Counted from the stretch's first letter, positions 21,149 through 33,806 are shown. The stretch: 50,843 bases of DNA from Flavobacteriales bacterium (GCA_007693635.1 REDE01000094.1:1-50843), one strand, 5' to 3'. Numbers and translations: made by a program. Notes: a model not told the origin generated them from the letters alone.

Positions 21149-21304
21149 GTTTCGAAGCATCCTCATTTTGGTGTCGTAAAATGTCTTGGATTATCGCTGG
21201 TTTTTGGCTTTTCAGCTCTTCAGAAAAAACTGCTAACGGAGGGTATTTTTGCTAAAATTTTGTTTTAGATTTCTTGGCGTCAGCATTTTTCAATCTTGCC
21301 ATCG

Positions 21305-21312
21305 TACTTTTG
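21305..21312 (+). promoter_or_regulatory. promoter of the CotH-SDR transcription unit
   Basis: TACTTTTG matches TAnnTTTG. The inferred start near 21316 leaves ~18 nt to ATG 21334. No clear -33 TTG at the right spacing. The stretch 21149-21304 holds nothing else I can identify. Confidence 0.5.
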
Positions 21313-21333
21313 CGGATTGACTGCTATACACTT

Positions 21334-23760
21334 ATGGATATAGAATTTCCCAAGCAATTGATTTTTCTCTGTGGGGGCAAAAGGAAGTATGTGCTTCAAC
21401 TTTTGATCCTGCTGAATGTATTTTTTATAGGTGAGACGCAGGCGCAAGACTTCCCGGTAATTAATGAGGCTTGCAACCATTATTTTAATTCGGTGGTGGA
21501 TAGGGAGGGTGATGGCTCCGCTTGGGTGGAGTTGTACAACCCAACCGATTCGGTGATTTCAATGAATGCTTGGTATTTATCGTCGGATACTTTTAATCTT
21601 CGAATGTATCCGCTACCAGATACCTTGATTTATCCCGGAAAATTTTTATTGATTGCTCTTTCGGGGAAGTATAGTTCGAATACATATATCATTGATGGTC
21701 ATTTTGCATGGTCAAAAGATCAGCCCCGTCTGTTTTTATCGGATAGTGTGGGCGTACGTGATCAGATTCATATGCCCGATTTGCCGTATGATCATAGCTA
21801 CGGTAGAGTAAGTGATGGCGATAGTTTGTGGGAGGCTTTTCGTTTGCCCACGCCGGGAGCGACAAACTTTGGCGCAAAGCGCTTCGTGCCCATTACCGAA
21901 CAATTGACGGTTTGGCCTTTCTCCGGCTGGTATCAGGTAGATAGTATTCGTTTAGAAGTCGGGTCTTCAGCTTCTGATTTGGAAATCCGTTACGCGTTTC
22001 AAGGCTTTTCTCCTGAGGATTCTTCAGCTTTTGTGTACTCCAATTCAGCTTGGATTTATCCGCATCAAAGCGATACTTTTGCGTGGATCCCCACTACGGT
22101 GAATTCCTTGGAGAGTCTGTTTCGCTGGCGCCAACCTCAGAATGTTCCCTCATTTGTCAACACTCTCAGCATTGCGGGATATCGTAACGGCGAGCGTGTA
22201 ACACCCTATTATTATCGTCACTACTTCATGCAGCGTTCTGCGCCAAGTTTTAATTTGCCAGTGATTTCGATACAAACCCCGCCGGATAATTTGTTTGGAT
22301 TTGAACGGGGAATTTATGTCCCTGGGCGCGTACACGCAGAAACGCCGGTGACGAGTTGGCCGTGGGGAACGGGAAACTTTCACGAGCGAGGAAGGGCATG
22401 GGAACGCCTAGCGCATCTGTCTTTTTTTGAGCCTGACGGAAGTCTGGCTTTTGAGCAAAATTTGGGTTTGCGAATTCATGGCGGTGGAAGTCGTGCCTTG
22501 CCTATGAAGAGCTTGAGACTTTATCCAAGAGGAATTTACGGTGAATCGCGTTTGCGGTATCAGTTTTTTCCAGAACGCGATTTTACAAATTACAACCGAA
22601 TTTTACTCCGAAATAGCGGTCAAGATTTTGTGAAAACGATGTTTACCGACGCTATGGTGAGTCATATTGTGGCTCCATTGGATTTGGATAGACAGCTTTC
22701 TCAGGCCGCGGTTCACTATATAAATGGTGAATTTTGGGGGGTGATTAACATTCGAGACCGCATCGATGAACACTTTATATCCTACACCCGAAATGTGCCG
22801 GAGGAGCAGGTGGAATTGATAGAGGTGTTTAGACCAACTCAGGAAGAAGAAGACAATGGTTGGTCCAGATTTATGTTACAGCTATACGATTTTGATGACT
22901 ATAATGATGATGGTTTTTTCGATTTTATGGAGGAACATCTCGATATTGATAATTTGATAGACTATCTAATAGTTCGCTTATATATTGGCTCGTTTGATTG
23001 GCCCGGGAATAATCGAATGGTTTGGAGAGATAAACGGGGTGGGCGATTCCGAAATATCCTTTTCGACAACGATCATACTCTAGAAAGATATGATTTCAAT
23101 ACTTTTGAATTGGCCCTAAACCCTAATGGTCCATTTTGGCCCAACCCTCGCTGGTCAACAGCACTTTTTCGAGCAGCAATGCAAAATGATATTTTTTTGG
23201 AAAAATTTATTGCTCGAAATGCCTGGATGATTAAAGAGATTTTCGCTCCAGAGCGCCTTACAGCAATTTTAGATTCGTTTGTAGAGCTCTATGAGCCGGT
23301 GATGTTTGACCAAATTTCTCGCTGGCAAAAACCGGGAGAAAATATCGGAGCATGGTATTTTTATCTGCAATTTATACGAGAATTTATTGTGAAACGACCT
23401 TGCTTTATGCGACAGTTCACCATTGATCAGTTCAATTTGCACTGGACATACTTAGCGGAGCTCGAATGTGAGAACCGGCAATTGGAAAATAGTTCGCAAT
23501 CTTCAAAGTTGAGAATGGAGGTGTTTCCCAATCCTAGTGACGGTCAATTTACACTGGCCGGACTAATCACGCCATATTCAAAAGTGAAAATTTCCGTTTC
23601 TAACACCTTGGGTCAAACGGTGCATAATGAAAGCTCATTTATAGATGCTTCTTATCTGATCAAACATTTTGACTTGCGACTTAATCTGCAACCGGGTGTT
23701 TACTATATTCGGGTGGAAAATGAGGGAGCGGTCGCGGTGTTGCGCTACATAAAAAATTAA
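21334..23760 (+). CDS. secreted CotH-kinase family protein with lamin-tail and type IX sorting domains
   Basis: 808 residues from ATG 21334. A signal peptide (KRKYVLQLLILLNVFFIGET, then AQAQ-like cleavage) is followed by a lamin-tail-like beta domain (~40-150, VWVEL-type WVELYNPTDSVISM), a linker, and the CotH region (~300-650) with LGLRIHGGGSRALPMKSL, NGEFWGVINIRDRIDE and the acidic FDNDHTLERYD. The last ~80 residues form a type A T9SS sorting domain (VFPNPSDGQFTLAG to YYIRVENEG). CotH proteins are atypical protein kinases, first known from spore coats. This one would be exported and placed on the cell surface. The open frame reaches a TTG at 21274, rejected because the promoter lies between. 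The SDR gene follows after 4 nt. Confidence 0.87.
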   Translation: MDIEFPKQLIFLCGGKRKYVLQLLILLNVFFIGETQAQDFPVINEACNHYFNSVVDREGDGSAWVELYNPTDSVISMNAWYLSSDTFNLRMYPLPDTLIYPGKFLLIALSGKYSSNTYIIDGHFAWSKDQPRLFLSDSVGVRDQIHMPDLPYDHSYGRVSDGDSLWEAFRLPTPGATNFGAKRFVPITEQLTVWPFSGWYQVDSIRLEVGSSASDLEIRYAFQGFSPEDSSAFVYSNSAWIYPHQSDTFAWIPTTVNSLESLFRWRQPQNVPSFVNTLSIAGYRNGERVTPYYYRHYFMQRSAPSFNLPVISIQTPPDNLFGFERGIYVPGRVHAETPVTSWPWGTGNFHERGRAWERLAHLSFFEPDGSLAFEQNLGLRIHGGGSRALPMKSLRLYPRGIYGESRLRYQFFPERDFTNYNRILLRNSGQDFVKTMFTDAMVSHIVAPLDLDRQLSQAAVHYINGEFWGVINIRDRIDEHFISYTRNVPEEQVELIEVFRPTQEEEDNGWSRFMLQLYDFDDYNDDGFFDFMEEHLDIDNLIDYLIVRLYIGSFDWPGNNRMVWRDKRGGRFRNILFDNDHTLERYDFNTFELALNPNGPFWPNPRWSTALFRAAMQNDIFLEKFIARNAWMIKEIFAPERLTAILDSFVELYEPVMFDQISRWQKPGENIGAWYFYLQFIREFIVKRPCFMRQFTIDQFNLHWTYLAELECENRQLENSSQSSKLRMEVFPNPSDGQFTLAGLITPYSKVKISVSNTLGQTVHNESSFIDASYLIKHFDLRLNLQPGVYYIRVENEGAVAVLRYIKN

Positions 23761-31252: not shown

Positions 31253-31927
31253 TTAATTTTCGTCCATGAAGACATTTACGCGCTGCACTCCCGCAACGTT
31301 CTTGAGTTCACGTACGAGAAGATCACTCGCTTTGCGATCGTTCAGCTGAATGTAAAATGAATTTTCGATGTGTTGGTTGTCGGTGGCTCCCACGCTTTTC
31401 ACGTTGATTAGCTTAAACGTTGAGCAGTGATTTTCCAAAATAGCATCGAAGGCATTTGTTGGTAGTGTTTCGGTATGTGCTTGAATTTGCAATAAGAACT
31501 CCTTGTTTGTAGGCTTTGCGTGGTTTATTTTACTGGTAATAAACACTGCAGCGCTGATGAACAGTGTGCCAACAACACAAATAGCGTATGTCCCTGCACC
31601 GGCAGCCAAACCTATCCCCAAAGCAAAAAAGATAAACATGATATCTTGGGTGTCTTTTACTGCCGTACGGAAGCGAATGATCGACATGGCTCCGACCAAG
31701 CCAAATGCTCGGGCCAGATTATTGCCAATGACCATGATGACGAGTGCGGTAATCATCGAAAGCATGATGATGGCATTTACAAAGTTTGCCGAGTAGCTCA
31801 GTCCTCTGTAGGTCACTCTGTAGAGTACGGCAATAAATACCCCGCAAAGTAGGGCCACCATAAGGTTTGAAAGAGCGTCTTGAATGGTGATGGAGAAAAC
31901 GAAGATATCCGAAAAGTCTTGTTGCAT
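31253..31927 (-). CDS. DUF4956 domain membrane protein
   Basis: 224 residues. About four membrane helices in the first ~130 residues, containing the family's conserved LVGAMSIIRFRTAVKDTQDI, then a cytoplasmic ~90-residue ferredoxin-like or ACT-like tail (LINVKSVGATDNQHIENSFY). DUF4956 has no assigned biochemical role but is repeatedly encoded beside VTC-domain proteins, and in other phyla beside CotH proteins. Here it starts 2 nt after the VTC gene. A membrane partner of polyphosphate synthesis or transport is inference from context. Confidence 0.9.
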   Translation of the reverse strand: MQQDFSDIFVFSITIQDALSNLMVALLCGVFIAVLYRVTYRGLSYSANFVNAIIMLSMITALVIMVIGNNLARAFGLVGAMSIIRFRTAVKDTQDIMFIFFALGIGLAAGAGTYAICVVGTLFISAAVFITSKINHAKPTNKEFLLQIQAHTETLPTNAFDAILENHCSTFKLINVKSVGATDNQHIENSFYIQLNDRKASDLLVRELKNVAGVQRVNVFMDEN

Positions 31928-31929
31928 AA

Positions 31930-32700
31930 TTAGTCGTCTTTGTAAAGTGAGCCAATTTTTTGTCGGTTAAACATGGCGTTATTGGTGTAATTAACATCAA
32001 TGCCTTGCGCATACTTTGAGAGCGCTTGATGTTGAATTTCAAATTCTTGAACTATCGATCTTGCCCATCTTGGCATTTCATCGCTAAAGTATTTTATTTC
32101 GAGTATGAAATGGTTTGGCCAACATAATATGCAGTTGTCATCCTCGTACAGATTTTGCATTTCGGGAAATATATTGGCACGAATATTTTTGTCAAAAGTA
32201 ATGCGTACACCAGAATCAAAACTCCCAAAATAGGGTTCTCTTTCGTACACGACAGTCGTTACTGGTCGCTGATGCAGTCGGTGATAGTAGTACAGGAATC
32301 GATTGAGGTCTTTTCCAGATCGCGATTCCGGAGAGTGGAAATCTTCGATATTGCTGTATTCCAGTAATTCGTTGACTCGCGAAAATGGTATTAGGGCGCG
32401 GCTTTTACCAATGCGATTTTCAAATTTGTGTTTTATTTCGAAAAACACTTTATTGTCAGGGTGATACGAGTCGTATCCGCGAATTCTGAGTTTGTTCCTA
32501 TCCCTCAGACCTTCAATTTTTTCATCGTAAGCTGCCCAGTCATTGGAGTCAAAATAGATGCTGCGAACGGTGTATTCTGGAAACTCTTTACCGGATTTGC
32601 TGGCGTAGGCATCGGGTTCTGTGAAAGTGCCAACGCGCTTGCGCAATGCATCGAGGTGGTCATTGTGAACGAGGTATTTGCGTTCGTAGCGCTTGGTCAT
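31930..32700 (-). CDS. VTC domain protein (polyphosphate polymerase-like)
   Basis: 256 residues consisting almost only of a VTC domain, the tunnel fold that in yeast Vtc4 polymerises ATP gamma-phosphates into polyphosphate. Tunnel-type basic and acidic residues occur in the expected order: RYERKYLV (~4-11), YTVRSIYFDS, KLRIRGYDSY, VFFEIKHKF, VVYEREPYFG, RITFDKNIRA and FILEIKYF. It lacks the SPX domain and membrane parts of the yeast protein; the adjacent DUF4956 protein may supply the membrane part. Catalysis is inferred from the domain only. Confidence 0.9.
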   Translation of the reverse strand: MTKRYERKYLVHNDHLDALRKRVGTFTEPDAYASKSGKEFPEYTVRSIYFDSNDWAAYDEKIEGLRDRNKLRIRGYDSYHPDNKVFFEIKHKFENRIGKSRALIPFSRVNELLEYSNIEDFHSPESRSGKDLNRFLYYYHRLHQRPVTTVVYEREPYFGSFDSGVRITFDKNIRANIFPEMQNLYEDDNCILCWPNHFILEIKYFSDEMPRWARSIVQEFEIQHQALSKYAQGIDVNYTNNAMFNRQKIGSLYKDD

Positions 32701-32713
32701 CCCTTATATTGAT

Positions 32714-33772
32714 TTATCGCACACCGAAATATCGCCCTAGGTAGCTGAAAAATTGTAGGTCTTCAATAAAGACATCGACCTCCAGTACCGCGCCTGGCGG
32801 GATTTTTCCGGCTGGGAATTCCGCTCGTGCAAAAAATGCCGAACGACCCTCAATCACCTGCATGGTGTTGTCGACGTTTATAATTCGGCCTTCGATTTTA
32901 TGCGGACCATATTTCGCGAATACTTTTTGACCTACCAATATGTAGGGGCGATCTTTAGACTGAAAGCCGCATACAGCTACTATCGATGTCGTGTCGGCTA
33001 GTGCCATTACGCGATTTGAAGAATTTCCGTGTTGATGAATAACCATGCCAGAGAACGGACTGCGGAGCACGAGGGATTCCAAGCGTTCTTCGACTTGCGA
33101 AAGTTGGTCTTTGGTCGCCTTTATCTTCGCGCGGAGTAATAATTCTTGCTCGGGTTTTTCTCCAGTGGTAATCGAACGATAGCGAGCTTCGGCAATATCT
33201 AAATTAATTTCTTTCACCCGATAGCGATTTTCCGCAATTTCAAACTCCTGATCTGAGATTACAGAATCTCGATGCAAAAGACGTGAGCGACTAATCAGCT
33301 TTTTCTCAGTAGCTAACTCTTGTCTTGCTAGTTTTAAACGATGCAGTGCTTCATCAACATCTTCAGGTTTTTGACCGGTGGTGTAAAACTCCAACTCAGC
33401 TTCTAATATCCCCAAGGTTCCCTGAAGCTCAATTAATTTGCGGAGCTCTTCATTCGAATTGTAAATTCCGATGGTGTCGCCTTCACGTATAAACGACTTG
33501 TGCTTGAGATCTTCATTAAGTTCAAAAGTAACGACATCACCCCGCTGAAATTCAGTTACACTGTAGGTTTCTAAGGTTCCTTTTCTATGGTCTTTGTAAT
33601 TGGAGACTAAATTTCCTTCGGAGGTTTTTCCCAATTGCCATTCTTGTAAGGGATAGGTTATCGCTTTCGCGCTAATCGTGAAAGGTAACTTTACCGGAAT
33701 GAGCAACAACAACATCACCGGGAGAAAAAAATATAAACCGTAGCGTAGACGCTTCTTTTCTTTGACGGTCAT
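32714..33772 (-). CDS. HlyD-type membrane-fusion (adaptor) protein
   Basis: 352 residues from ATG 33772. One membrane helix near the N-terminus (LRYGLYFFLPVMLLLLIPVK), a lipoyl/barrel-sandwich part, a long coiled-coil hairpin (~105-230: LIELQGTLGILEAELEF to LSQVEERLESLVLR), the returning half-motif SPFSGMVIHQHGNSSNRV, and a beta-barrel end. This is the layout of type I secretion or efflux adaptors, but no ABC or RND pump is encoded nearby. The TTG at 33793 is rejected since a promoter (33799-33806) leaves ~23 nt to ATG 33772. The VTC gene follows after 13 nt. Confidence 0.82.
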   Translation of the reverse strand: MTVKEKKRLRYGLYFFLPVMLLLLIPVKLPFTISAKAITYPLQEWQLGKTSEGNLVSNYKDHRKGTLETYSVTEFQRGDVVTFELNEDLKHKSFIREGDTIGIYNSNEELRKLIELQGTLGILEAELEFYTTGQKPEDVDEALHRLKLARQELATEKKLISRSRLLHRDSVISDQEFEIAENRYRVKEINLDIAEARYRSITTGEKPEQELLLRAKIKATKDQLSQVEERLESLVLRSPFSGMVIHQHGNSSNRVMALADTTSIVAVCGFQSKDRPYILVGQKVFAKYGPHKIEGRIINVDNTMQVIEGRSAFFARAEFPAGKIPPGAVLEVDVFIEDLQFFSYLGRYFGVR

Positions 33773-33798
33773 GAATGGTTTTATTATATGCAAAGCTG

Positions 33799-33806
33799 CA
33801 AAGTTA
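33799..33806 (-). promoter_or_regulatory. promoter of the HlyD-VTC-DUF4956 operon
   Basis: TAACTTTG on the minus strand matches TAnnTTTG. The inferred start near 33795 gives a ~23-nt leader to ATG 33772. No -33 TTG at 18-21 nt. Confidence 0.55.

Follow-up and report, generated by a model that had tools for sequence, protein, structure and literature searches.

In the tripartite systems that have been reviewed, the inner-membrane component is an ABC, RND, or MFS protein (PMC8277102), and an RLS motif serves TolC docking in MacA, AcrA, and MexA (PMC3391258). The yeast VTC complex (Vtc1/Vtc3/Vtc4) couples synthesis to membrane translocation (PMC9911596). Gram-positive pel operons are accompanied by a VTC-DUF4956 pair, found as accessory genes together with CotH (PMC7112168, PMC12345266); the pair was therefore known before, as the first-pass annotation of the present locus had stated. 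What appears to be new here, judging from sequence comparison, is a cassette in which an adaptor joins that pair, and with it an adaptor-TolC type of assembly with an unusual inner-membrane partner. In the full-text literature searched, a body of work that leaves most subscription journals outside, three papers name DUF4956, and no description of such a cassette was found.

The window, by which we mean the whole stretch of 50,843 nucleotides that was analyzed, comes from a Flavobacteriales draft genome (190 contigs totaling 2.56 Mb, ~92% complete); among named relatives, metagenome bins of the Cryomorphaceae and Schleiferiaceae are nearest. The features on which the comparison rests are as follows.

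32714..33772, minus strand: first gene, a HlyD-type adaptor, i.e., a membrane fusion protein of the HlyD/MacA/EmrA type (352 aa, ATG at 33772)
31930..32700, minus strand: VTC domain protein, of the triphosphate tunnel polyphosphate-polymerase type by resemblance (256 aa, Pfam VTC)
31253..31927, minus strand: DUF4956 membrane protein, MgtC-like (224 aa, Pfam DUF4956)
33799..33806, minus strand: possible Bacteroidota promoter -7 box TAACTTTG, just upstream of the adaptor ATG (pattern match, position only)
33074..33454, minus strand: long alpha-helical hairpin of the adaptor, residues 107-233 (secondary structure of the predicted model)
33254..33289, minus strand: RLS motif R-x3-L-x6-S at the hairpin tip, adaptor residues 162-173 (family alignment)
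31667..31675, minus strand: DUF4956 R85-F86-R87, an invariant arginine pair in the membrane region (sequence tally)

The three genes are flanked by secG-like and dnaG-like genes (names assigned from sequence), with gaps of 13 nt between adaptor and VTC and 2 nt between VTC and DUF4956, exactly as first annotated. The claim that no pump is nearby also held, in that no ABC, RND, or MFS gene was found inside or adjoining the operon in the window. A common promoter for all three genes is plausible from the sequence: the candidate box, whose pattern we take to be of the Bacteroidota -7 promoter type, stands before the adaptor ATG as that claim would have it, but patterns of this type occur in the window at the frequency seen in shuffled sequence. 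A longer adaptor ORF, starting from a TTG at 33793, would begin beside the box; relatives favor the ATG. An Rfam search of the window added little, and an anti-phage defence role for the trio was rejected, there being no PADLOC match.

No Pfam family matches the adaptor, but it is nonetheless a true membrane fusion protein. It is matched by NCBIfam adaptor models at 1e-6 to 1e-8, and in the PDB the profile of the 59-sequence adaptor family finds both EmrA and MacA with 1.1e-14. Its AlphaFold2 model (pLDDT 92.3) consists of an N-terminal membrane helix, a beta-barrel, lipoyl-like parts, and the helical hairpin; Foldseek with this model retrieved MacA at 1.6e-15, and VIA-align gave 5xu0 at Z 13.9 (rmsd 5.0, 216 aligned) and EmrA 8zar at Z 13.5 (rmsd 8.7, 297 aligned). 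The fold and the hairpin in the model, together with the EmrA and MacA matches, thus bear out the envelope adaptor with a long hairpin that had been called from the sequence. Within the motif at the hairpin tip, R162 is present in 59/59 family members, L166 in 56/59, and S173 in 43/59, and the only invariant positions of the entire alignment are R162 and G242. MacAB-TolC, EmrAB-TolC, and AcrAB-TolC share with the cassette the adaptor fold, inner-membrane anchor, long hairpin, and RLS motif, and in some lineages the cassette operon also encodes TolC; whereas the reviewed tripartite exporters have an ABC, RND, or MFS component, the sole inner-membrane partner encoded here is DUF4956, with VTC as a possible user of ATP.

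Conservation of the cassette was followed outward from the host genome. Among the 99 related genomes searched first, a close VTC homologue occurs in five others, and the adaptor precedes it in all five, one contig stopping before DUF4956. A scan of GTDB used the adaptor alignment alone and was thus blind to VTC; with two short peptide patterns, it would miss distant relatives. It yielded 29 loci, all in Bacteroidota, and VTC follows the adaptor in 29/29, with DUF4956 next in 28 and the contig of the 29th ending within VTC. The flanking genes around these loci vary by lineage, so it is the cassette, not its surroundings, that is conserved, and chance gene arrangement is excluded because the trio is conserved across Bacteroidota.

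An even sample of 296 genomes, drawn within Bacteroidota, contains VTC in 48 genomes (55 matches). Strong adaptor matches number 25 in this sample: 23 adjoin VTC, the 24th (L075) has DUF4956 and TolC as its neighbors in a genome that lacks VTC, and the 25th (L098) belongs to an ordinary TolC-adaptor-two-membrane-protein operon. Viewed from VTC, the 52 loci read with their flanks invariably include DUF4956 (52/52), an adaptor in 32, DUF2490 in 14, and both in none. The neighborhood survey therefore finds VTC constant beside the GTDB adaptors, and the HlyD partner that the first-pass annotation had asked about at 32 of 52 VTC loci; the refuting outcome named there, an HlyD gene not conserved next to the pair, did not occur. 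Adaptor-bearing loci show several gene orders, and in the VTC tree they fall into an adaptor-first clade (support 84) and an adaptor-last clade (98), with a DUF2490 clade (100) that includes a few loci lacking DUF2490. The corresponding adaptors also form separate groups in the adaptor tree (a quick method, with SH-aLRT only); at least two adaptor lineages are therefore tied to VTC-DUF4956, either by separate recruitment or through an old split. The mutual exclusivity of adaptor and DUF2490 has a Fisher p of 2e-8, a value inflated by shared ancestry, and represents few old events, adaptor loci and DUF2490 loci being in separate clades of the VTC tree. Pairwise distances for the three genes in the adaptor-first group correlate at r 0.89-0.91, which was reached in 0/999 permutations; this shows co-inheritance, but linkage alone would give the same result.

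The Bacteroidota VTC-DUF4956-DUF2490 loci, with or without CotH, resemble the cassette in combining the VTC-DUF4956 core with one further envelope protein. They differ in that this partner, DUF2490, also scores as an outer-membrane barrel, is never found with an adaptor in the sample, and goes with a VTC clade of its own. Four loci from another family of the same order (L017-L020) carry a CotH-small lipoprotein-VTC-DUF4956-DUF2490-rhomboid protease cluster without an adaptor. Neighboring genes in GC-rich genomes come from a simple ORF finder, with profile searches in six frames as a check; a 778-aa frame in L096, at first sight an adaptor-VTC fusion, was rejected as a wrong-frame artefact of a GC-rich genome. 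Some cassette genes are broken or cut: DUF4956 of L087 has an internal TGA, the adaptor of L100 lies in two frames, and L035 is at a contig end. The loci L036-L049, mostly from soda-lake Bacteroidales bins, have constant flanks on both sides and are thus not mutually independent. A cultured species with the cassette is Alkaliflexus imshenetskii DSM 15055 (L046), in the order adaptor-VTC-DUF4956. At nine loci (L024-L030, L032, and L097), a secreted or lipoprotein-like protein of ~300-440 aa adjoins the cassette; its Pfam matches are weak (phytase-like 0.008, DUF6923 0.003).

TolC/OEP genes lie inside the cassette in four lineages, in the orders adaptor-VTC-DUF4956-TolC (L025 and L032), adaptor-DUF4956-TolC (L075), and DUF4956-adaptor-TolC-VTC (L108). 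Most cassettes, including that of the window, have no TolC gene of their own; the window genome encodes five TolC-type proteins, all away from the operon; four are each accompanied by their own strong adaptor, and the remaining one by a weak adaptor. Sixteen other genomes (L155-L170; 15 of one family and one Flavobacteriales genome) have DUF4956 without VTC, followed by a short adaptor and then by a secreted protein of ~410 aa. A divergent TolC is the probable identity of this protein: 3/13 members gave OEP matches (best 9.8e-6), and its profile matches the cassette TolCs with 83% probability, although a PDB profile search with it did not find TolC. The DUF4956-adaptor-TolC operon of these genomes is apparently undescribed. 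The wider theme is therefore a combination of DUF4956, an adaptor, and a TolC-like protein, which VTC joins often but not always. With the RLS motif and the TolC genes in cassettes, these operons strengthen the envelope link first proposed for the trio.

The reading we favor, tentatively and at a little short of an even chance, is that DUF4956 and VTC form the inner-membrane half of an adaptor-TolC export machine, with the VTC product as its cargo. The trio would then assemble into an envelope-spanning exporter that uses no ABC, RND, or MFS pump. VTC, at the cytoplasmic face, would convert ATP to a phosphate polymer, as its invariant active-site residues suggest, and DUF4956 would be the inner-membrane partner and perhaps the pore. 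The adaptor, anchored in the inner membrane, would use the RLS motif at the tip of its hairpin to dock onto a channel of the TolC family, whose gene lies elsewhere in the host genome or, in other species, beside the cassette; docking is proposed from a motif whose role was demonstrated experimentally in MacA, AcrA, and HlyD. By analogy with the coupled synthesis and translocation of yeast VTC, the polymer would be delivered to the cell surface, both the product and the direction of export being part of the proposal. What is directly established, and is the starting point of this proposal, is the gene content and its conservation, the fold and motif of the adaptor, the residues of the active site, and the links to TolC; the adaptor-DUF4956-TolC part of the proposal is better supported than its polyphosphate part. 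Against the export machine stand the systems without VTC (L075, L155-L170), the presence of PPK1 in most VTC genomes (see below), the lack of an own TolC gene in most cassettes, and the resemblance of DUF4956 to the regulator MgtC. Because the L075 and L155-L170 systems have no VTC, polyphosphate is not an obligatory cargo. It is possible, though less likely than not, that the cassette represents a further class of adaptor-TolC exporter, in which the MgtC-like DUF4956 replaces the pump and ATP-driven polyphosphate polymerization by VTC not only produces the cargo but also propels it to the cell surface, some other cargo being carried where VTC is absent.

The TolC-less window operon could also be accommodated if the adaptor needed no TolC for its work in the periplasm or at the cell wall and the operon were a co-regulated set of envelope-stress genes, and no obvious RLS motif is visible by eye in the aligned VTC-less adaptors. 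We consider this very unlikely, however, as the RLS arginine and leucine rank among the most conserved positions of the adaptor family and TolC genes have entered the cassette in four lineages.

In the VTC protein, the VTC domain was the only Pfam match (3.6e-39), and the family profile aligns with yeast Vtc4 over its full length at 8.3e-23, scoring above Vtc2 and Vtc3. Eight residues of the window protein, K8, R72, R74, K90, R154, R166, E201, and K229, are invariant in 53 sequences and pair, by hand from printed alignments, with Vtc4 K200, R264, R266, K281, R361, R373, E426, and K458, respectively; the expected conservation of the tunnel residues is thus borne out. Five of these positions (Vtc4 K200, K281, R361, R373, and K458) presumably line the tunnel too. 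Replacement of the other three, R264, R266, and E426, inactivated yeast Vtc4 (PMC9911596). The VTC protein is likely to be an active tunnel enzyme, and polyphosphate synthesis by it is plausible, but the bacterial VTC proteins considered here are called polyphosphate polymerases by resemblance only. The tunnel-enzyme domain, the active-site residues, and a constant membrane-protein partner are features in common with the yeast complex; unlike the yeast proteins, the window protein has no predicted membrane segment, no SPX domain, and no membrane domain in its 256 aa, it is partnered by DUF4956, and the cassette has an adaptor as well. PPK1 is present in the host genome and in 46/48 VTC genomes. 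A role for VTC as a PPK1 replacement was therefore rejected: VTC is no stand-in for the storage polyphosphate made by PPK1 and would have a separate job.

That coexistence would also fit an adaptor-DUF4956-TolC exporter of something other than polyphosphate. In that case VTC would be a triphosphatase, an ATP-driven motor, or a modifier, and what leaves the cell would be another anion, a cofactor, or a phosphate donor used by secreted CotH kinases. Versions without VTC exist, PPK1 already serves polyphosphate storage in 46/48 VTC genomes, CotH genes lie within 4 kb of 10/32 adaptor cassettes in the 296-genome sample, and related tunnel enzymes catalyze different reactions (PMC4641920). We nevertheless hold a different cargo to be unlikely, since the residues match those of the polyphosphate-polymerizing Vtc4, which the profile also scores above Vtc2 and Vtc3, and since the CotH link is inconstant, the window CotH gene sharing no operon with the trio. 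That gene (21274-23757, plus strand) encodes a protein of 828 aa that combines a lamin-tail domain and a CotH kinase domain with a type IX secretion tail; it lies 7.5 kb from the trio on the opposite strand, and the genome has eight CotH matches.

The third protein of the window trio matches Pfam DUF4956 (PF16316) at 2.8e-18, with 66.7 bits against a gathering threshold of 30.6. Its AlphaFold2 model (pLDDT 80, pTM 0.61) places five helices in the membrane region, followed by a C-terminal domain of beta-alpha-beta-beta-alpha-beta topology, ACT- or ferredoxin-like, that resembles the MgtC C-terminal domains 2lqj and 7qa5. PDB matches of the model cover the C-terminal domain only, NikR and ribosomal S6 being the best, and leave the membrane part uninformed. 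Membrane helices followed by an ACT-like domain are also the layout of the MgtC/SapB family, but the match to the MgtC/SapB model PRK09977 (7.5e-8, 32.2 bits) is far under the 214-bit equivalog cut-off, and most of the loci read have DUF4956 next to VTC, to an adaptor, or to both. The arginines R85 and R87 do not vary in any of the 99 tallied sequences from four groups, with VTC present or absent. Such a pair in the membrane partner of a polyanion-making enzyme would fit a pore; against this, MgtC-like proteins are known as regulators, MgtC itself not as a channel, and both arginines are kept where VTC is absent. Residue 91 (31655-31657) is K or R in 58/58 adaptor-and-VTC sequences, Q or T in 15/16 VTC-less sequences, and mostly hydrophobic in the DUF2490 type; a basic residue there was dropped as a mark of coupling to VTC, as L075 keeps K without VTC. 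Short DUF4956-like proteins (185-186 aa) with unrelated neighbors in three genomes (L171-L173) are perhaps a separate subfamily, and genome G280 has a second DUF4956 gene (L174), after which come a Porin_O_P-like protein and a CotH kinase; the stretch contains no VTC.

The MgtC-like membrane part and the match of the ACT-like domain to solved MgtC domains are what would be expected if VTC and DUF4956 were a phosphate- or energy-sensing unit controlling an envelope process, with the adaptor serving a pump or polymer exporter encoded elsewhere. The Gram-positive systems point in the same direction. Their pel operons (Streptococcus, Clostridium, and Bifidobacterium) are accompanied by VTC-DUF4956-CotH genes (PMC7112168), and in S. 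intermedius Pel rose when the DUF4956-like gene was deleted and fell on deletion of CotH, while no change in Pel was reported for the VTC gene (PMC12345266). These results count against an export machine and fit a regulatory role, in a Gram-positive that has neither adaptor nor TolC. The Gram-positive systems differ from the window in that CotH is constant and no adaptor has been described, whereas the window has no pel genes in sight and its CotH is not part of the operon. Searches of phages and plasmids returned further Gram-positive VTC-DUF4956 examples, with CotH in two of the three that were read. Regulation of an envelope process by the pair, an alternative that the first-pass annotation had raised, consequently draws support from the S. 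intermedius mutants, but we find it somewhat unlikely for the cassette: the adaptor keeps with DUF4956 across gene orders and phylogenetically distinct adaptor types, the VTC-less operons have a TolC-like gene at their end, both of which suggest that the partner is a direct, physical one, and no pump gene recurs among the neighbor families listed around the cassettes.

Polyphosphate is found on the surface of bacteria such as the gonococcus, and other gene products may be involved there (PMC10237660). The cassette gives DUF4956 and the bacterial VTC proteins a physical context, the adaptor-TolC route, which is a testable prediction. If the export machine is real, it could show how bacteria place polyphosphate on the cell surface, and it would mean that tripartite envelope machines can work without any of the three usual pump classes.
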